From Gordonia sp. KTR9 (GTDB taxonomy: Bacteria; Actinomycetota; Actinomycetes; Mycobacteriales; Mycobacteriaceae), in assembly GCF_000143885.2 (NCBI RefSeq), contig NC_018581.1:3782001-3846000 (forward strand): 64,000 nucleotides of DNA, in the 5' to 3' direction. The translations under genes and the position numbers were made by a program. Numbering within the stretch: position 1 is the stretch's first letter; each line of letters starts with the position of its first letter. Positions 5,837 through 22,321 of this stretch are shown here, piece after piece. A model generated the notes under the pieces. That model was not told the origin of the DNA, made no database searches, and saw only the letters and a list, made by a program, of their open reading frames with translations.

Positions 5837-6781
5837 CTATATGAGAGAACGGGTGATGTCACTTTCCGCGGCGGCGGGAAGGCCCGCCACGACGCGCTCG
5901 CATCGACCCGCCAGCTCGCGACGATCCCGGCCGGGCGCCTCGGGTGGGTGGATGACCATCGTGACGGCCAGGCCACGTGCCCGCAGAACCCGCCGGAGGG
6001 TGTCGGCCGGGGTGTCGGCGCCGATGAAACTCGGCGCCGTCGCGGTGGTCCCGTCGGTGCCGACGAATCGCAGCTTCACCGGCACCACCGGGACATCCGC
6101 GTCGATCGCGGCCTGGAAGAACGCCGGGCGGAACGCGCCGCCGGATCGACCGCAGTAGGTGGTGCCCTCGGGGAACACGATCACCGACGAGTCGCGGTGC
6201 AGGCGTCCGGCGACCTCGCCGACCGTCTCCGGTAACCCGCGGAGTGTGCCGCGGTCGACGGCGATGACGCCGAACCTGCGCGCAAGGGAGGACACCACCG
6301 GCATCCCGACGACATCGGATTTGGCCACCACGTGCGCGGGGCTGATCAGCGCGAGTGCGAGCACGTCGAGGAAGGAGATGTGATTGGCGACCACCAGCCC
6401 CGCTCGGGCAGGGTCTGCTCGGCGGTCCTCGACGTCGACGGAGATCCCCAGGGCCGCCAACAGTGCACTCGATGCAGGGGCGCGGAGCGAACGTGGCGGT
6501 CGTCGACGCAGACCCGCCACCGCCCGAGCGGTCAGGACGGCCCAGACGATCCACATCGCGACCGCCGCGAGCCGGCACAGGCGCCACCCGACGATCGTCG
6601 CGTCGGCGATCGCGTCGAAGCGCCGCGCCACCGTCGGGCCGAGGCATCCTTCGCCGCAGGTGCTGATCGGGAACCACGGATGCGTGAGCGCGCCGGACGG
6701 GCGGGCCGGCGGACACTGTGAGTGGCCGCGTCGCGGACCAGCCGTGCGCGGTGAGACCGGACCGGCCAGCAGCGCGGTCAT
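5837..6781 (-). CDS. 1-acylglycerol-3-phosphate acyltransferase (PlsC family)
   Basis: 314 residues. It transfers an acyl chain to a lysophospholipid-type acceptor at the membrane. The four PlsC blocks are present: NHISFLDV (H-x4-D), a middle GVIAVDRG, FPEGTTYCG and VVPVKLRF. A hydrophobic stretch (LAAVAMWIVWAVLTARAVAG) precedes the catalytic part. The N-terminal 60 residues include CGEGCLG, an unusual cysteine pair. ATG 6781 overlaps the stop of the GNAT gene as ATGA. The paired arrangement is that of Rv3026c/Rv3027c and of OlsB-OlsA lipid acyltransferases, suggesting successive acylations of one lipid. Confidence 0.88.
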   Translation of the reverse strand: MTALLAGPVSPRTAGPRRGHSQCPPARPSGALTHPWFPISTCGEGCLGPTVARRFDAIADATIVGWRLCRLAAVAMWIVWAVLTARAVAGLRRRPPRSLRAPASSALLAALGISVDVEDRRADPARAGLVVANHISFLDVLALALISPAHVVAKSDVVGMPVVSSLARRFGVIAVDRGTLRGLPETVGEVAGRLHRDSSVIVFPEGTTYCGRSGGAFRPAFFQAAIDADVPVVPVKLRFVGTDGTTATAPSFIGADTPADTLRRVLRARGLAVTMVIHPPEAPGRDRRELAGRCERVVAGLPAAAESDITRSLI

Positions 6782-15958: not shown

Positions 15959-17158
15959 CTAGAACCGGACTCCCGGCTCACAGATGAACGCGACGCCCTT
16001 GCGTCCGATCCGGGTCAGCACCACCGACAGCGAGCGGGAGCCCCTGGGCTTGAGCTTCTTTCGCAGCCGATCGGGGTCGACGTCGAGTCCGCGGACAAGG
16101 ATCTCGAGCGAGCCGCAGTCCAGCGCGGCGAGCGCCTTGCGGAGCGACTTCTCGGTCACCCCCGTCTGCTCGATCACCCGGAATCCGCGCGCTCCTTCGG
16201 GGACGGAAGTGCCGGTCAGGTAAGCGATCTGCGGATCGAGCTGCCATAGTCCGAACCGGTGGGCGTAGTGCCTGACCAGCCCCGCCCGCACGATCGCCCC
16301 GTCCGGGTCGACGATCCATTCCCCGACCTCACCGGCGGGCACGTCGTCGTCTTCGCGATCGGTGATCTCGACCTCGGCGACCGTACCGTCAGGCCTGGTC
16401 CGCAGGACGGTGGCCCGGCGACCGGGCTCCACACCCGGCCCCGACCACAGGCACGCCTCCCGCACGCCGCCGTCGAGCGAGGTGACCTGGACCTCGCCGT
16501 CGAAGCCGAAGCGGTTCCGCAGCATCTGATGATCCAGTCCGGGAGCGCATTTCACGATCATCAGGCGGCCCGGATAGGTGGTCAGCAGCTCGAAGAGCGG
16601 TGGCGTCAGCTGATCGAGCCGGAAGGTCCGGCCCGCGTCCGACCGCCGTGCCGGGTCCGCGAGGAGCACGTCCGCGGTCGATGTCGGGGTGAGCGCATCC
16701 GCGATCAGCAACGTGGCGTCGGGCACGTTCGCCCGCGCCATCGCGAGCCGGACCCGATCGATGTCGCTGCCGATGACACCACGAATACCGCTGACAAGCA
16801 CCAGCTCTCGAAGTTCCGCGCCGATCGAGCAGGTCAGGTCGTGCACCACCGACCCCGGGAATCGTCCCGCGACCTCGGCGGCGCGGTACGCGGCGACCAC
16901 CGACGCGGTCGCCTGCTGTCCGGCGTCGTCGGTGAGCAAGAGGCCATCGGCGTCACGCAGCTTCGAGCGCGCTCGCCGGCGGCACCGCACCGTCTCGATG
17001 AGCGCGGCATCGTGCGGCGCGTACCGGCTGCGGACCTCGGTGATGTCGGACAGCATGGTCGACGGGGTGAGATCGAGTCCGGACACCGTCTCGAGCGCCT
17101 TCTCACCGTGCCGCGACCGCAGGAACGCGACGTCGTCGAGACTGAAGGAGTAGCCCAT
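15959..17158 (-). CDS. class I SAM methyltransferase with THUMP-like domain (Rv3037c-like)
   Basis: 399 residues. The central methyltransferase domain has motif I VVHDLTCSIGAELREL, an acidic GSDIDRVRLAMARAN and motif IV VLLADPARRSDAGRTF. The C-terminal 100 residues (VTEKSLRKALAALDCGSLEILVRGLDVDPDRLRKKLKPRG) match the THUMP-like region found in this family, suggesting an RNA substrate. Its 3' end converges on the PQQ lipoprotein gene with 25 bp between stops. The corresponding mycobacterial gene is uncharacterised. Confidence 0.85.
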   Translation of the reverse strand: MGYSFSLDDVAFLRSRHGEKALETVSGLDLTPSTMLSDITEVRSRYAPHDAALIETVRCRRRARSKLRDADGLLLTDDAGQQATASVVAAYRAAEVAGRFPGSVVHDLTCSIGAELRELVLVSGIRGVIGSDIDRVRLAMARANVPDATLLIADALTPTSTADVLLADPARRSDAGRTFRLDQLTPPLFELLTTYPGRLMIVKCAPGLDHQMLRNRFGFDGEVQVTSLDGGVREACLWSGPGVEPGRRATVLRTRPDGTVAEVEITDREDDDVPAGEVGEWIVDPDGAIVRAGLVRHYAHRFGLWQLDPQIAYLTGTSVPEGARGFRVIEQTGVTEKSLRKALAALDCGSLEILVRGLDVDPDRLRKKLKPRGSRSLSVVLTRIGRKGVAFICEPGVRF

Positions 17159-17241
17159 GATGCTTGCAGGCTACCGTCGGGCTCACGGCCGCGGTCACAC
17201 ACCATCTGGGCGACGTCCGACACATCTGCGACGATGGCGAT

Positions 17242-17808
17242 GTGAACGTCCACGACGACCTGCCGCACCCGCCGCGTCGGATCGCGGTGGCGGGCGTGTC
17301 CGGGGTCGGCAAGACGACCACCGCGCGTCGCATCGCCGCGGTCGTCGACGTCCCGCACGTCGAGATCGACGCGCTGCACCACGGACCCGGCTGGACTCGC
17401 AGACCCGAATTCCTCGACGACGTACGGACATTCATCGACGAGGGCGCCTGGGTGACCGAGTGGCAGTACGGCGACGCGCGACCACTGATCGCCGAGAACG
17501 CCGACATCATGGTCTGGCTCGACCTCCCGTATTGGACGACGACGTTCCCCCGCGTCGTCCGACGCACGATCCGCCGCCGTGTTCGCCGGGAACCGCTGTG
17601 GAACGGCAACACCGAGCCGCCGATGAGGACCATCCTCACCGACCCCGAACACATCATCCGATGGTCGGTGAGCCACCGGCACACGTATGCAGAACGGGTA
17701 CCGCGTCTCCGCAACACCCATCCCGACCTGCGGATCGTCCGGCTGCGAACACAGTCCGAGGTCGACGCCTGGATCGCCGGGCCGCTCGCCAGGGCCCGGC
17801 GGACCTGA
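17242..17808 (+). CDS. P-loop nucleoside/shikimate-kinase-like ATPase
   Basis: 188 residues from GTG 17242 (weak ribosome-binding site; start uncertain). Walker A is GVSGVGKTTTAR; then VPHVEIDALHHGPGW, a substrate-lid type Asp-His pair, and VWLDLPYWTTTFPRVVRRTIRRR. This is the pattern of the small FlaR/topology-modulation-like kinases, whose substrates are unknown. The gene ends 12 bp before what appears to be the original 3' end of the neighbouring methyltransferase gene, i.e. just outside the integrated element. Confidence 0.75.
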   Translation: MNVHDDLPHPPRRIAVAGVSGVGKTTTARRIAAVVDVPHVEIDALHHGPGWTRRPEFLDDVRTFIDEGAWVTEWQYGDARPLIAENADIMVWLDLPYWTTTFPRVVRRTIRRRVRREPLWNGNTEPPMRTILTDPEHIIRWSVSHRHTYAERVPRLRNTHPDLRIVRLRTQSEVDAWIAGPLARARRT

Positions 17809-17826
17809 CGGGGTTCCGCCTACTGC

Positions 17827-17861
17827 GGCTTCACACCCGTCACCACGACTTTGTAGAAGAA
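17827..17861. repeat. left attachment-site repeat (attL-like)
   Basis: 35 bp beginning GGCTTCACACCCGTC, matching 21354-21388 at 34 of 35 positions (T instead of G at the 24th). Read on the minus strand this copy encodes the same methyltransferase C-terminus, ending VTGVKPQ then TAG at 17822-17820. It therefore looks like the original 3' end of the target gene, left behind after integration. Confidence 0.8.
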
Positions 17862-17978
17862 TCCCGTCCTGCGGGTTTGCTTCATACGGTGGCGTTGGTT
17901 GGTTAGCATTCGTGCAGCTTATTTGCGTTGGCTAGCGCTGGGGCGAGTTGGGACTACTGCGGGCGCTACGCTCGATTC

Positions 17979-18254
17979 ATGGCTGAATGGGCGTGTCACT
18001 GGGTCAAGGGCGACACATACGAGATCGTCAACAACCTTGGCCGGACGGCCACAGGTGTGCGTCTCTCCACCCACGGTCCGATGGTTGCGGCGGGGACTCG
18101 TGACTGGTCGCGGGAGTACGGCGACATCGAGGCCGGTCGCGCGATTTCACAGAAGTTCAAGACTGGGATGGGCCGCCGCAGAGAGCAAGCGTTCGTTCTC
18201 GTCGAGTGGAACGACGACAAAGGGCGACACTCCCAGGAGATACCCTTCGACTAA
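17979..18254 (+). CDS. small hypothetical protein in the element
   Basis: 91 residues from ATG 17979. No family recognised. It reads like a small soluble beta-rich domain: ACHWVKGDTYEIVNNLGRTA, then VRLSTHG and a C-terminal AFVLVEWNDDKGRHSQEIPFD. The pattern of a Trp/Gly-rich start and a terminal strand recalls small proteins that accompany phage or plasmid genes, but no function can be assigned. It lies just inside the left repeat. Confidence 0.55.
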   Translation: MAEWACHWVKGDTYEIVNNLGRTATGVRLSTHGPMVAAGTRDWSREYGDIEAGRAISQKFKTGMGRRREQAFVLVEWNDDKGRHSQEIPFD

Positions 18255-18326
18255 GTTGCGACGGGCTCCGACAGTAACTCGCCCGGACGACAGCGCTGTG
18301 TCGGGTACGCCCGATATGATCCGCTG

Positions 18327-19076
18327 ATGTCACAGGCCCCTCCCCCTTGGCCGTCCACTCCTGGATGGCACCGCGACCCCGAGAACCCCGCAATGCTGCG
18401 GTGGTGGGACGGGTACCAGTGGACAGCCAACCGGCATCCGGTGCAGCCACCAACGGCACCCCTCCCGCCGTATCCACCAGCCCCGAAGTCGAGCGCCGCG
18501 AAGCCGCTCCTGATCATCGGCGGGTCACTCCTCGCGTTCTTCGTGCTTGTGGGGTCGTGCACTGCGCTCGTGTCAGCTGGAGGTAGTAGCAGCACCTCCT
18601 CGTCGTCCTCGTCGCGGACCTACGAACCGCCGCCGAACACGACTGCAGCAGCGGCCGCGTCGCGGTCCGCGGCGGCCGAGCGCCAGCGTCGCGACCAAGA
18701 GCGGCAACGCCTGACGAACAAGGCGTCCTACCGAACGGTCTCTTCTCGCGACTGGCAGCTCGTTGCGAAGAATCCAGACGCGCACAAGGGAGAGCTCTAC
18801 GTAGTCTATGGACGCGTCGTCCAGGCGGACGCGGCGACCGGGACGTTCCAGATCCGAGTCAACACCGACGGGCAACAAGTCGGCGTCTACGACTTCGACA
18901 TCAACACGATCGTGACTGCCGGCCTGGCATCGTTCAAAGAGGTGGTCGAAGACGACCTCGTGGCGTTGTGGGTGGGCGTCACCGGGTCGGAGACCTATGA
19001 CACAACCATGGGCGGTTCTGTCACAGCACCGAAGGTCGAGGCCAATATCGTCGAGGTCTACGGCAACGCCGGGTAG
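18327..19076 (+). CDS. DUF2510 membrane protein
   Basis: 249 residues. N-terminal DUF2510 motif: GWHRDPENPAMLRWWDGYQW. A Pro-rich linker leads to one membrane helix (LLIIGGSLLAFFVLVGSCTALV, about 54-75), then a Ser-rich linker, a short charged helix (SRSAAAERQRRDQERQR) and a C-terminal extracellular domain with YVVYGRVVQADAATGTFQIRV and VALWVGVTG, reading like an OB-type barrel. DUF2510 proteins are common in actinobacterial accessory regions and often carry a variable outer domain; function unknown. Followed by a hairpin terminator. Confidence 0.75.
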   Translation: MSQAPPPWPSTPGWHRDPENPAMLRWWDGYQWTANRHPVQPPTAPLPPYPPAPKSSAAKPLLIIGGSLLAFFVLVGSCTALVSAGGSSSTSSSSSSRTYEPPPNTTAAAAASRSAAAERQRRDQERQRLTNKASYRTVSSRDWQLVAKNPDAHKGELYVVYGRVVQADAATGTFQIRVNTDGQQVGVYDFDINTIVTAGLASFKEVVEDDLVALWVGVTGSETYDTTMGGSVTAPKVEANIVEVYGNAG

Positions 19077-19092
19077 CTCCGCGACACGGATG

Positions 19093-19124
19093 AAAGCGCC
19101 CCCACCCGTGATGAGTGGGGCTTT
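19093..19124 (+). terminator. terminator after the DUF2510 gene
   Basis: Inverted arms AAAGC...CCCAC and GTGGGGCTTT (5' arm bulged) 17 nt after the stop, followed by a short T-rich run (CTTTGTT). It separates the DUF2510 gene from the small-protein operon. Confidence 0.5.
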
Positions 19125-19152
19125 GTTCGTTGAGCGGTGACCGCCCCGAACT

Positions 19153-19190
19153 ACTTTGTCAACACTGTTGCACTTTGTCAGCACGGTTGC
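19153..19190 (+). promoter_or_regulatory. tandem 19-bp repeats at the promoter of the small-protein/excisionase operon
   Basis: Two adjoining 19-bp units, ACTTTGTCAACACTGTTGC (19153-19171) and ACTTTGTCAGCACGGTTGC (19172-19190), differ at two positions. Each contains TTGTCA, a good -35 hexamer, and small inverted repeats (CAAC/GTTG; CAGCA/TGCTG). A possible -10 (GATACA, 19200-19205) lies before the ATG at 19226. The layout suits an operator for a repressor of the mobile element. Confidence 0.5.
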
Positions 19191-19225
19191 TGTAGTTGAG
19201 ATACAACACCAGCGAAGAGGTGAGC

Positions 19226-19354
19226 ATGGACCCACCAAGTTGGACCGAGATCATCGGACTCCTAACCATCCTTCTGGGATGGGCGGAATTCTTCCGGAGG
19301 ATCTCAGAGGCCCGAAAGTCCGAGAAGCCGCGCAAGCGGAAGAAGGGCAAGTAG
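19226..19354 (+). CDS. 42-residue membrane protein, too short for routine gene finding
   Basis: ATG 19226 preceded by GAAGAGG at good spacing. The product starts MDPPSWTEIIG, has one hydrophobic helix (IIGLLTILLGWAEFF) and ends in a strongly basic tail (RKSEKPRKRKKGK). Small proteins of this type occur in phage lysis or membrane modules and in toxin families, but nothing identifies this one. It is followed 71 bp later by a second tiny membrane protein in the same direction. Confidence 0.5.
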   Translation: MDPPSWTEIIGLLTILLGWAEFFRRISEARKSEKPRKRKKGK

Positions 19355-19425
19355 GGAGGATGGCCCCGGGGCAGCCGGGGCCATCCGCCACCCAGTGTCC
19401 CACTATATGGAGGGTCCGAGAAGCC

Positions 19426-19578
19426 ATGAACAAACAGAACATGACGAGCGTGACCGTGTTCGCGATCGGCGCCGCAGCGCTAGCGGTGACGCAACAGCCG
19501 GCCGCGGTGTGGTTGGCGTTCGGGACCGCGGCGCTGGCCACGCTGATCGTCGCGACGAGGCAGCGGCGTCATGCCTGA
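19426..19578 (+). CDS. 50-residue membrane protein
   Basis: ATG 19426 with GGAGGG upstream. Two hydrophobic stretches (SVTVFAIGAAALAVTQ and AVWLAFGTAALATLIVA) separated by QPAA, with a basic end RQRRHA, so probably a two-helix hairpin in the membrane. Its stop overlaps the next start by 8 nt (ATG at 19571). Phage-like gene spacing; role unknown. Confidence 0.5.
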   Translation: MNKQNMTSVTVFAIGAAALAVTQQPAAVWLAFGTAALATLIVATRQRRHA

Positions 19579-19768
19579 GCCCGAACGGTTCATGGCGGCG
19601 TCGGAGGTGGCCGAGTGGTTGAGTATCGATCGCTCGGCCATCAGCCGGTACAAGATGCCCGAACCGGATGCGCTAATCGGGAAGACGCGAGGGTGGCGGC
19701 GCGAGACCATCGAGCGATGGAACGCGGAGCGGCCGGGTCGAGGTGCGCGCACCGACTTACACGACTAG
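19571..19768 (+). CDS. excisionase/AlpA-like helix-turn-helix protein
   Basis: 65 residues. Winged-HTH of the MerR/Xis type: FMAASEVAEWLSIDRSAISRY forms the HTH, then an acidic-Pro turn and RGWRRETIERWNAER as the wing and final helix. Such proteins direct excision or regulate element genes. It ends an apparent operon of three overlapping or close small genes and lies 1.3 kb from the integrase remnant. It appears intact. Confidence 0.65.
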   Translation: MPEPERFMAASEVAEWLSIDRSAISRYKMPEPDALIGKTRGWRRETIERWNAERPGRGARTDLHD

Positions 19769-19934
19769 GCGGGGGCTAGCCGCCCCGTGTCGGGCGGGCA
19801 GCCGGACGTTGCGATGATGCGAACGGACCGGACATCCATCTGACCGAACGGTTCGCTGCGAAGGGAGCGCAGACGGAGTCAGTCGATCGATGTGCTTCCC
19901 ACCCCGTAGTAGCCCAAGTGTTCGGAGTGTGAGC

Positions 19935-20176
19935 GTGAGTTCTGAGTCGTACCGTAGCAGCTAGACCAGAAGCGAAACAAGCTGGCGGAGGCCGAAGAGA
20001 AGGCGCGCAAGCTACAGAGCAAGGTCGCAACGGCCAGGACTAAGGCCGATAAGGCGCGCAGCGAAGCACAATCGACGAGATCCGACGCGACCCGCAAGAC
20101 AAAGCTGAGTCAAGCGACTCGGTACGACAAGGAATCAGCCAACGCAGCAAGGGACCTTGAGCGCGCCAACAAAGCC
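19935..20176 (+). pseudogene. 5' coiled-coil segment of the CHAT gene, split by a probable 1-nt deletion
   Basis: Upstream of the GTG at 20177 the CHAT reading frame stays open for 73 codons with no usable start, back to a TAG at 19955-19957. The open part encodes a highly charged helix (QLDQKRNKLAEAEEKARKL...) typical of the N-terminus of this CHAT family. A GTG at 19935 has GGAG seven bases upstream and encodes VSSESYR in the frame that would join QLDQKR if one base were restored at about 19956. So either the gene is frameshifted or one base is missing from the sequence. Confidence 0.6.
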
Positions 20177-20989
20177 GTGACAGCTGCCTCGAAGGCGGCC
20201 CAGACTGCGCAGGACCGTCTTAGCCGCGAGGAACGCACCGAGGAATCTCGACGGAAACGGCACGAGGAACGTGCGCAAAGGGCATCCGATCGTGATCGGC
20301 GGGAGCTCGATGATCGGTTATCAAGAGCAGAGTCCGCTATCGAGAACACTATTCGCGCTGTTCAACAGCCAAAACCAGAGAAATTGCGGGTCCTGTGGCT
20401 CGGGGCATCATCCCTCGGTGACCTCAGGGTCGGACGCGAGTTGAAGATCATTCGGAAAATGGTTCAATCCGCACAACACCGTGAATCGGTCGAGATCGAT
20501 TCACGGACAGCGGCGACTATCGATGACCTCCTCGACGGACTCACCGAATTTCGGCCGCATGTGGTTCATTTTTCCGGCCACAGCGATGACGACCTAATTG
20601 AGTTTGAGCGGGACGAGGACGTCATCCACGAGGGAACGGTCGTAAGTGCAGAAGCATTCGCGAATGCCGTCTCGTCGGTAGACGATCCCCCCAGTTTAGT
20701 TCTGCTGAATTCCTGCAATTCGGCGGCTCAGGCCGAGTTGCTCGTTGATGGTGTCGTTCCATTCGCGATCGGAATGACCGACGAGGTATTCGACGCGGAC
20801 GCGATCGCTTACGCCGGACGCTTCTACGGGACAGTAGCGAACGGTCAGTCGATCGCCGCAGCTCACAGGGTTGCAAAGTCGAAGCTCGAGATGGACGAGG
20901 ACCTTAGTGGTGATGAACTGCCTCAGCTGTTCGTTGCAGACGGCTTCGATGCAGAATCCACGCGACTCGTAGAACCACCGGATGCCTGA
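20177..20989 (+). CDS. CHAT-domain (caspase-like) protein, N-terminal coiled coil
   Basis: 270 residues if translation starts at GTG 20177. Residues 1-65 are a charged coiled coil; 69-260 are a CHAT (caspase HetF-associated with TPRs) domain: KLRVLWLGASSLGDLRVGRELKII, then the catalytic His in HFSGHSDDD (His135) and the catalytic Cys in LVLLNSCNSAAQ (Cys180), followed by AIGMTDEVFDADAIAYAGRFYG. Both catalytic residues are present. CHAT proteases are often linked to defence or cell-death systems, with the coiled coil serving for assembly. The natural N-terminus is probably longer (see 19935-20176), so expression of an active protein is uncertain. Lower GC than its surroundings. Confidence 0.75.
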   Translation: MTAASKAAQTAQDRLSREERTEESRRKRHEERAQRASDRDRRELDDRLSRAESAIENTIRAVQQPKPEKLRVLWLGASSLGDLRVGRELKIIRKMVQSAQHRESVEIDSRTAATIDDLLDGLTEFRPHVVHFSGHSDDDLIEFERDEDVIHEGTVVSAEAFANAVSSVDDPPSLVLLNSCNSAAQAELLVDGVVPFAIGMTDEVFDADAIAYAGRFYGTVANGQSIAAAHRVAKSKLEMDEDLSGDELPQLFVADGFDAESTRLVEPPDA

Positions 20990-21340
20990 GACGGATCGAA
21001 GATCGATCCGGTCCCCGGCGCTCTGCAGGTTCGATGGCTGTGGGCGAACAGCAACGGCGCCTGGACCGCCGATGTCGTGGGGCCGAGGTTCGCCCGACTC
21101 CGGGAGCGCGCCGCACTGACCTACTCGCTGCACGACCTCCGTCACTTCTACGCGAGCGGCCTGATCGCGGCCGGCTGCGACGTGGTGACCGTGCAACGCG
21201 CGATGGGCCATAAGGACGCCACCACGACGCTGAACACCGACAGCCGCCTTTGGCCGCGGGCCGAGGATCGGACCCGCAAGGCTGTGGCGAAGATGCTGAC
21301 TGAATCTACTGCGGGCGGTATCCGATGGCATCGGCTCTGA
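20990..21340 (+). pseudogene. tyrosine-recombinase (integrase) C-terminal remnant
   Basis: The frame runs on directly after the CHAT stop without its own start until GTG 21077. It encodes the end of a phage-type integrase: LHDLRHFYASGLIAAGCDVV supplies the H-x-x-R pair (His codon 21131), AMGHKDATTTLNT supplies the next His, and RLWPRAEDRTRKAV ends the domain. The usual active-site Tyr in NTYSHLWP is Asp here (GAC at 21239-21241). The N-terminal domains and first catalytic Arg are missing. It lies next to the right repeat, as integrases usually do. Confidence 0.75.
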
Positions 21341-21349
21341 ACAGCCTGT

Positions 21350-22321
21350 TTAGGGCTTCACACCCGTCACCACGACGTTGTAGAAGAACTTTGGCGGCAC
21401 GATCTTGCGCAGCACGTTCTCGTCGAGCCAGGTGAGGCGTTTCCATCCGCCGAAGGCGAACCGAGCCCAGCCCCACCCCAGCTTCTCCGGCGGCACCGCG
21501 GCTTCGAAGGTGCGCACCGGCCAGCCGAGCATCGCGGCGGCCAGTTCCTCGGTGGCGGTGTCCACCTTGTGCGCACCGGCGGCGCGGGCGATGCCGGCGA
21601 GCTCGTCGGGATCGAAGGTGTGGATGTCGACCACGGCCTCGAGCGCGGCCGCGCGGGAGGATTCGTCGAGTTCCTCCTGCGGGCGCCGCCATCCTTGCAG
21701 CGGGCCCAGCTTGGTGATTTTCGTCGTGGCGAACCACGTCGCGCGGCTCATCCAGCGTGCATAGAAGTCGCCGATCGTCGACGGCTCACCCGCGAAGATG
21801 AACCGACCGCCGGGCTTGAGCACCCGCAACACCTCACGAAGTGCCTGCTCGACGTCCGGGATATGGTGCAGCACAGCGTGTCCGACGACGAGATCGAAAG
21901 TGTCGTCGTCGTAGGGGATCTTCTCCGCGTCGGCGACGCGACCGTCGACGTCGAGCCCCAGGTTCTCCGCGTTGCGCAGCGCGACCTTGACCATGCCGGG
22001 CGAGAGGTCGGTCACCGATCCCTTCGCCGCGACCCCCGACTGCATCAGGTTCAGGAGGAAGAAGCCGGTGCCGCAACCGAGTTCCATCGCGCGGCCATAC
22101 GGGAGGGGCTCATCGGTGGCGACGGCGTCGAAACGGCCACGCGCGTAGTCGATGCACCGTTCGTCGAAGCTGATCGACCACTTCTCGTCGTAGGTCTCGG
22201 CCTCCCAGTCGTGGTAGAGCACCTGGGCGAGCTTCGTGTCGGTGAGTGCCGCCTTGACCTGCTCCTCGGTGGCGTGCGGGTTGGGAGCCGGATCAGTGCC
22301 CGGCGTGGCATCGGTGGTCAT
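21350..22321 (-). CDS. SAM-dependent methyltransferase (Rv3038c-like), integration target
   Basis: 323 residues. Class I methyltransferase: motif I AMELGCGTGFFLLNLM, SVTDLSPGMVKVALRNAE, IPYDDDTFDLVVGHAVLHHIPDVEQALREVLRVLKPGGRF. The N-terminus contains YHDWEAETYDEKWSISFDERC, typical of this family. Substrate unknown. The last 11 codons lie inside the 35-bp direct repeat; the present C-terminus reads VTGVKP, whereas the left copy of the repeat reads VTGVKPQ, so integration replaced the gene end with an equivalent one and left it functional. Confidence 0.85.
   Translation of the reverse strand: MTTDATPGTDPAPNPHATEEQVKAALTDTKLAQVLYHDWEAETYDEKWSISFDERCIDYARGRFDAVATDEPLPYGRAMELGCGTGFFLLNLMQSGVAAKGSVTDLSPGMVKVALRNAENLGLDVDGRVADAEKIPYDDDTFDLVVGHAVLHHIPDVEQALREVLRVLKPGGRFIFAGEPSTIGDFYARWMSRATWFATTKITKLGPLQGWRRPQEELDESSRAAALEAVVDIHTFDPDELAGIARAAGAHKVDTATEELAAAMLGWPVRTFEAAVPPEKLGWGWARFAFGGWKRLTWLDENVLRKIVPPKFFYNVVVTGVKP
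21354..21388. repeat. right attachment-site repeat (attR-like)
   Basis: 35 bp forming the 3' end of the methyltransferase coding sequence (stop TAA at 21352-21350 lies just outside). Same as 17827-17861 except G for T at the 24th base. The integrase remnant ends 13 bp away. Confidence 0.8.

Follow-up and report, generated by a model that had tools for sequence, protein, structure and literature searches.

The stretch between positions 17827 and 21388 of a 64,000-nucleotide window of Gordonia sp. KTR9 DNA (contig NC_018581.1, positions 3,782,001 to 3,846,000; coordinates below are those of this window unless a contig is named) is, with high confidence, a decayed genomic island, most likely a shrunken phage-derived element, placed by a tyrosine integrase in a conserved methyltransferase (MTase) gene, at its 3′ end. 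The features that point to this can be read from the sequences: the repeats that bound the island, an empty junction in a relative, an integrase relic, occupied sites in relatives and the coherence of the integrase clade. A first-pass annotation of the same DNA had already proposed an integrated element replacing the MTase 3′ end, and the integrase relic, the junction in genome G015 and the occupied sites in Williamsia and in a viral contig (L119) now bear this out. With less assurance, we lean towards a wider view in which the island comes from a widespread actinobacterial integrase group. Such integrases would find new attB sites through a short core, GTTC-N5-C-(A/T)AC, that ends conserved but otherwise unrelated genes (ychF, yajQ, glnA, a DUF4185 gene and the MTase gene) and always has the same codon register, and tandem-heptamer arms, 11 bp apart and in two frames, would lie in the last codons of the integrase gene (int; A-D-x-L-R-T), with protein tail and attP arm evolving as one sequence.

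The island is bounded by a 35-bp direct repeat (17827-17861 and 21354-21388) whose copies, identical at 34 of 35 positions, enclose 3.5 kb; recomputation returned the repeat as first described. With up to three mismatches allowed, the 35-mer occurs at two places in the 5,885,710-base genome, the two island ends, so the repeat is not due to chance. The same count rules out a many-copy repeat, the result that the first pass had named as contrary to its proposal. The right copy (attR core, minus strand) is the 3′ end now used by the MTase gene, an intact open reading frame (ORF; 21350-22321, minus strand; PF08241, Methyltransf_11, E 4.1e-26) that reads ...VTGVKP* and ends in a TAA supplied by the island, in agreement with the earlier assignment. 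The left copy (attL core, minus strand) is the displaced former 3′ end, reading ...VTGVKPQ*, one residue more than the right copy, and ending in a TAG at 17820-17822 (minus strand; CCGCAGTAGGCGG), the pre-insertion stop codon, which is also found at the empty site of G015. This C-terminus and its TAG stand as previously annotated; the 12 bp given between the TAG and the stop of the neighboring P-loop gene (TGA, 17806-17808) do not, the distance being 11 bp. GC content has a minimum of 0.56 inside the stretch, compared with 0.63-0.72 in the surrounding GC windows. A tRNA attachment site is ruled out by the count of 0 tRNA genes in the 64-kb window.

Of 59 genus genomes, 57 have the full MTase, while G010 and G042 have weak paralogues only. 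Fifty-five other genus loci were examined (G031, cut at a contig end, was omitted, and for 29 of the 55 the sequence covered ends 1.5 kb downstream). At one of them, in G015, where the MTase is 98% identical, the empty junction reads GAAGCCGCAGTAGGCGGTTCC where the left flank of the window reads GAAGCCGCAGTAGGCGGAACC, and GAAGCCGCAGTAGGCGG runs across the junction exactly as in that flank.

Adjoining the right repeat is the tyrosine integrase relic (21032-21340, plus strand; PF00589, E 5.3e-8, positions 113-162 of 172; phrog_1), the C-terminal part of a protein that aligns with about residues 275-379 of an intact 390-aa integrase from Williamsia sp. 1135. The H-x-x-R and G-H motifs are kept; the N-terminal part is gone, including the first Arg and the Lys region, and TLNTDSRLW stands in place of TLNTYSHLW, a change of the nucleophile from Tyr to Asp that leaves the catalytic set incomplete. 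With the N-terminal part lost and the tyrosine changed, the island is immobile by its own means; it is a relic and not a working element. A second sign of decay is the CHAT-domain gene to the left of the relic (19935-20989, plus strand; PF12770, E 2.3e-11), whose frame is broken within the first ten codons, as judged by comparison with an 86% identical Gordonia lacunae protein (P0001), and whose longest open part with a start codon is 20177-20989. This gene encodes an N-terminal coiled-coil-like stretch and has 569 protein relatives (E ≤ 1e-3), many of them full-length.

In the mechanism that we propose, the attP core copies the last MTase codons, so that insertion left the gene complete, with ...VTGVKP-TAA for ...VTGVKPQ-TAG, and moved the old MTase 3′ end to the far side, where it forms attL. 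Arm-type integrase-binding sites probably lay on both sides of the attP core, one set roughly 100 bp inside attL and the other in the int 3′ coding end. The loss of the N-terminal part of int and the tyrosine change came later.

The same gene end is occupied in relatives. In Williamsia sp. 1135 (G130; L096, L120), 36-bp repeats at the MTase 3′ end, identical at 33 of 36 positions, lie 15,653 bp apart; by our reading the displaced C-terminus is ...GTKPN* and the present one ...GVKPG*. The intact 390-aa integrase of this element is encoded by an ORF that shares 4 bp with that of the MTase. The element also encodes a 1734-aa tape-measure protein, a D5-type primase and a helix-turn-helix repressor-like protein, with no head or terminase gene among the eight proteins scanned. 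On L119 (IMGVR_UViG_2541047556_000007, 8776 bp), phage genes for a terminase (phrog_9, E 1.8e-79), a portal protein (phrog_104, E 8.2e-107) and a major head protein (phrog_10, E 4.1e-40) are followed at 6480 by an MTase tail with the same codons (attL) and then by host flank. That flank is 98.6% identical over 2298 bp to G011, in which the MTase gene is intact, with one 3′ end and the same flank. Two further genomes carry an integrase relic adjoining the MTase end, G008 (82% identity to the window relic) and G021 (more strongly decayed, with stops). The G008 relic (L083:12400-12700) shares its reading frame with the tail of a membrane-segment-like peptide, PKKKRKKWPWVLGAIAVLVIVIAA, the picture expected had a deletion joined a cargo gene to the end of the integrase.

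The MTase 3′-end motif was found in 224 of 301 family genomes and in two copies in three of them (G000, G130 and G316); G316, whose two copies are on different contigs, was not used as an occupied site. Among 116 integrase loci (80 of 293 confirmed genome-contig loci and 36 viral-contig loci), an MTase gene is within reach only in Williamsia. Integrase fragments in G181 and G135 were set aside as MTase-site cases because, by our reading, they adjoin an apparent ychF end. A second viral-contig pattern was seen in nine contigs; L119 is the one that combines an MTase tail with arms, and the other eight gave no integrase or MTase match.

We infer a phage origin for the window copy from these relatives, and it is a tentative possibility that the element type at the MTase site is a phage satellite, a small island with few or no head genes, and not a full prophage. 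The 15.65-kb size of the Williamsia element fits a satellite, as do its gene content (the proteins scanned include a primase and a tape-measure protein and neither a head protein nor a terminase) and the fact that the terminase, portal and head genes of L119 end directly at attL. On the other hand, the other element end is off the L119 contig, which therefore does not give the element size, and the Williamsia element may be a deleted prophage.

Candidate arm-type sites are present at both ends of the island. The 12-mer CTACTGCGGGCG occurs once per end, at 17954-17965 (plus strand; its heptamer starts 96 bp from the attL core) and at 21306-21317 (plus strand; inside the integrase coding end), with no further copy in the window. 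At 57 of the 116 integrase loci the int 3′ end has two heptamers, TGCG(GA, TA or GG)C, 11 bp apart; the exact pair is absent from the other 59. By target gene the pair is found at 12/27 ychF, 7/10 yajQ and 4/5 DUF4185-gene loci, and at 18/48 loci with no gene assigned. In both Williamsia and L119 the heptamers recur 105 and 116 bp inside attL, so that Williamsia has pairs on both sides of the core; in L119 the left pair is seen, the int side being off the contig. An attL search at 101 loci returned a repeat at 21, with two or three spaced heptamers inside attL at 7, including L221 (52-bp repeat at viral contig ends) and L144 (gene not assigned). The other 14 repeat loci do not have spaced heptamers, and most of these are short matches that we take for chance; L195 has a repeat at ychF and is nevertheless without them.

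The heptamers at the int end and inside attL would be arm-type sites, a reading that the behavior of the int end favors. That its conserved A-D-x-L-R-T is instead a protein motif and not a pair of DNA sites seems improbable to us. The residues are indeed conserved among proteins; in the best 120 of 1109 matches the ends pair D with T in 95, G with A in 10 and Y with T in 6, with one mixed and eight without the motif. However, the reading frame differs between the two heptamer copies (A-D in the first, L-R-T in the second), and the paired units are of the same variant in 57 of 57 cases (46, 10 and 1 for the three variants). The Ala codon is GCG in 56 of 56, compared with 36% in the rest of int, and no such pair was found in 2617 windows inside the same int genes. 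Fixed codons and units that change together indicate conservation of DNA and not of protein, and these heptamers are found again outside coding sequence, inside attL.

The gene converging on int varies among loci. Family searches (one locus per gene, two each for yajQ and RNase P RNA) named YchF, YajQ, MenB, type I GlnA, SigM, a carotenoid dioxygenase and a DUF4185 protein, and identified RNase P RNA (rnpB) as the neighbor at two loci. When 107 distinct loci (97 of the 116 and 10 from a family-genome search) were sorted by C-terminal motif, the targets were ychF at 27 loci, yajQ at 10, the DUF4185 gene at 5, rnpB at 5, menB at 4, glnA at 3, glnA-like at 2 (a label that is our guess, the tested member having no NCBIfam match) and MTase at 1, with no gene assigned at 50. 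Distant integrase relatives (about 38-41% identity) adjoin a complete RNase P RNA gene at L111:2697-3115 and L113:2703-3108. In Prescottella equi DSM 20307 (L127:11194-11478, the same locus as L101), the integrase adjoins the N-terminal half of a sigma factor gene, which matches SigM model positions 6-90 of 204, and L103, L105, L107 and L108 are similar. There sigM seems to be split by the element and not restored, possibly a case of regulated gene integrity.

The putative recombination core of the window would be GTTCTTCTACAAC at attR (21377-21389, minus strand), with ATTCTTCTACAAA as its attL counterpart (17850-17862, minus strand). Its pattern, GTTC-N5-C-(A/T)AC, is common to other targets, with 26/27 ychF, 7/10 yajQ, 4/5 DUF4185-gene, 2/3 glnA and 1/1 MTase loci having it, together with 2/4 menB (one away from the gene end), 0/5 rnpB, 0/2 glnA-like and 2/50 loci with no gene assigned. 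Overall it is present at 44 of 107 loci versus 89 of 4834 control stretches, a control set that dates from before the removal of three duplicate loci. Some of the genes counted are those in which the pattern was first noticed, which makes the count partly circular and the test not independent.

In a tree of 22 C-terminal integrase pieces of our choosing (G008 fills 46% of the columns), the window, G008 and Williamsia integrases form one clade, with support of 100/99, apart from the integrases at other genes. A search of 5.8 billion proteins returned, in the best 120 of 1109 matches, at least 28 proteins besides Williamsia's own with at least 68% identity to the Williamsia integrase, among them proteins of Gordonia polyisoprenivorans, G. 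terrae and G. paraffinivorans, and one relative (P0144) agrees with the window fragment in 91 of 98 alignment columns. In a tblastn search of 50,697 phage records the Williamsia integrase matched 781, all below 60% identity, and 19 of 401 family genomes have a relative at E ≤ 1e-60.

Several observations weigh against an integrase-placed, phage-derived island. No phage structural gene was found among the seven ORFs of the window copy that were scanned, and the class of the island rests on its relatives for that reason. There is one att mismatch, AAA for AAC in attL, for which a later mutation is the sole explanation that we offer, and the window has one arm unit per end, not a pair. G008 and G021 show a single copy of the MTase 3′ end, their attL being lost or unrecognized. 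Finally, the exact empty order was seen at 0 of the 55 other genus loci, 29 of them covered to 1.5 kb downstream: the first pass had expected empty sites to show the P-loop gene convergent with the MTase gene at about 12 bp, and G015, which shows the same junction sequence, has no P-loop gene at its MTase locus.

That the island remains mobile in trans, through the integrase of another element, is very improbable. It still has its two att cores, an arm unit on each side and an AlpA/Xis-like ORF that is open, and close intact integrases exist in other Gordonia strains. Against this, the only match of the relic in its own genome at E ≤ 1e-14 is the relic itself, the three others being weak (about 1e-4), and the arms are reduced and attL carries its mismatch. 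A target-site or segmental duplication, by a transposon or illegitimate recombination that copied the gene end next to an unrelated integrase fragment, could appeal to the broken integrase and to cargo genes that are not diagnostic, but is hardly credible: the limit of the repeat coincides with that of the gene, a stop codon having been displaced; the integrase relic adjoins the repeat; and Williamsia and L119 have independent elements of the same build at those very codons.

The remaining contents of the island, all on the plus strand, are an ORF with no family above the cut-off (17928-18254) and a DUF2510 protein gene (18327-19076; PF10708, E 1.2e-9), both taken as cargo, a 42-codon ORF without a family match (19226-19354), a 50-codon ORF with a weak NCBIfam match under the cut-off (19426-19578) and a 65-aa AlpA/excisionase-like DNA-binding ORF (19571-19768; phrog_597, E 2.6e-22; phrog_66, E 8e-5). 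General family scans gave no relaxase or transfer family among the scanned ORFs, and a PADLOC search for anti-phage defense systems in four island ORFs returned weak CHAT-type matches only (best E 2.4e-6). The cargo DNA has matches in 16 of 58 other genus genomes, many of them short. A closer relative (75%) of the AlpA-like ORF is found in another Gordonia (G045 contig 166, L279, 9627-9803), in a stretch 72% alike to window positions 19217-19737.

To the left of the island are the host P-loop (AAA-like) gene (17164-17808, plus strand) and a THUMP-like gene (15959-17158, minus strand; PF18096, E 4.4e-20) that lies directly downstream of the MTase gene in many relatives. Its start is within 120 nt of the MTase match end, on the same strand, at 23 of the 55 loci, a spacing that gives the two genes the look of an operon; in the window they are separated by the P-loop gene and the island. 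The P-loop gene is beside the MTase gene at 2 of the 55 loci (G022 and G026), with about 400 bp between and without the repeat, which rules it out as part of the island. In G022 (L091:8283-8545) an AlpA-like ORF, 45% identical to the window ORF at 19571, lies by itself in the interval from the P-loop gene to the MTase end. It may be all that remains of another island; we do not take it to prove an earlier insertion.

These results add to the known attachment sites one that is precisely located, in a conserved methyltransferase gene at its 3′ end. What most deserves attention is the group of integrases from which the island comes: the intact integrase of Williamsia sp. 1135, to which other Gordonia strains have close relatives, could be the basis of an integration vector for such bacteria. 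The wider pattern, if true, would explain target switching, since a short common core would suffice and the arm sites would be carried within the int coding sequence. We found no report of the MTase site, or of arm sites in int coding ends, in the open-access literature, the TIGER/Islander file lying outside this search, which accords with the first-pass remark that this gene is unfamiliar as an attachment site. As far as the accessible text of that study goes, none of 29 attB sites in Mycobacterium abscessus is this MTase gene (PMC10654092).

The MTase 3′ end is a new address for an already known kind of element. Sites in protein-coding genes had been annotated as less common than tRNA sites, and published counts run the other way: of 1.76 million TIGER/Islander islands, coding sequences hold 43.4% and tRNA or tmRNA genes 33.8% (PMC12424338), which makes the kind of site an ordinary one. 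SGI1 at trmE (PMC8409611) and the icd prophages (PMC10111431) likewise have a tyrosine integrase, an attP that replaces the gene 3′ end and a displaced fragment on the far side; the window island differs in its target gene, its integrase clade and in being a dead copy. Known elements in late phage genes also combine one integrase lineage with several protein-gene sites, roughly coherent by sub-clade, but disrupt their targets without replacing them, whereas here most of the tested target genes are complete at the 3′ end. The Streptococcus pneumoniae prophage beside ychF (PMC6375853) shares the ychF neighborhood as an integration address, but has a 14-bp AT-rich repeat and ychF as the downstream gene. 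Mycobacteriophage attP sites (PMC3203893) similarly have short paired repeats, 11-bp arm-type sites on both sides of the core with one variant per phage; those phages use tRNA genes, whereas here one pair lies in the int coding end.

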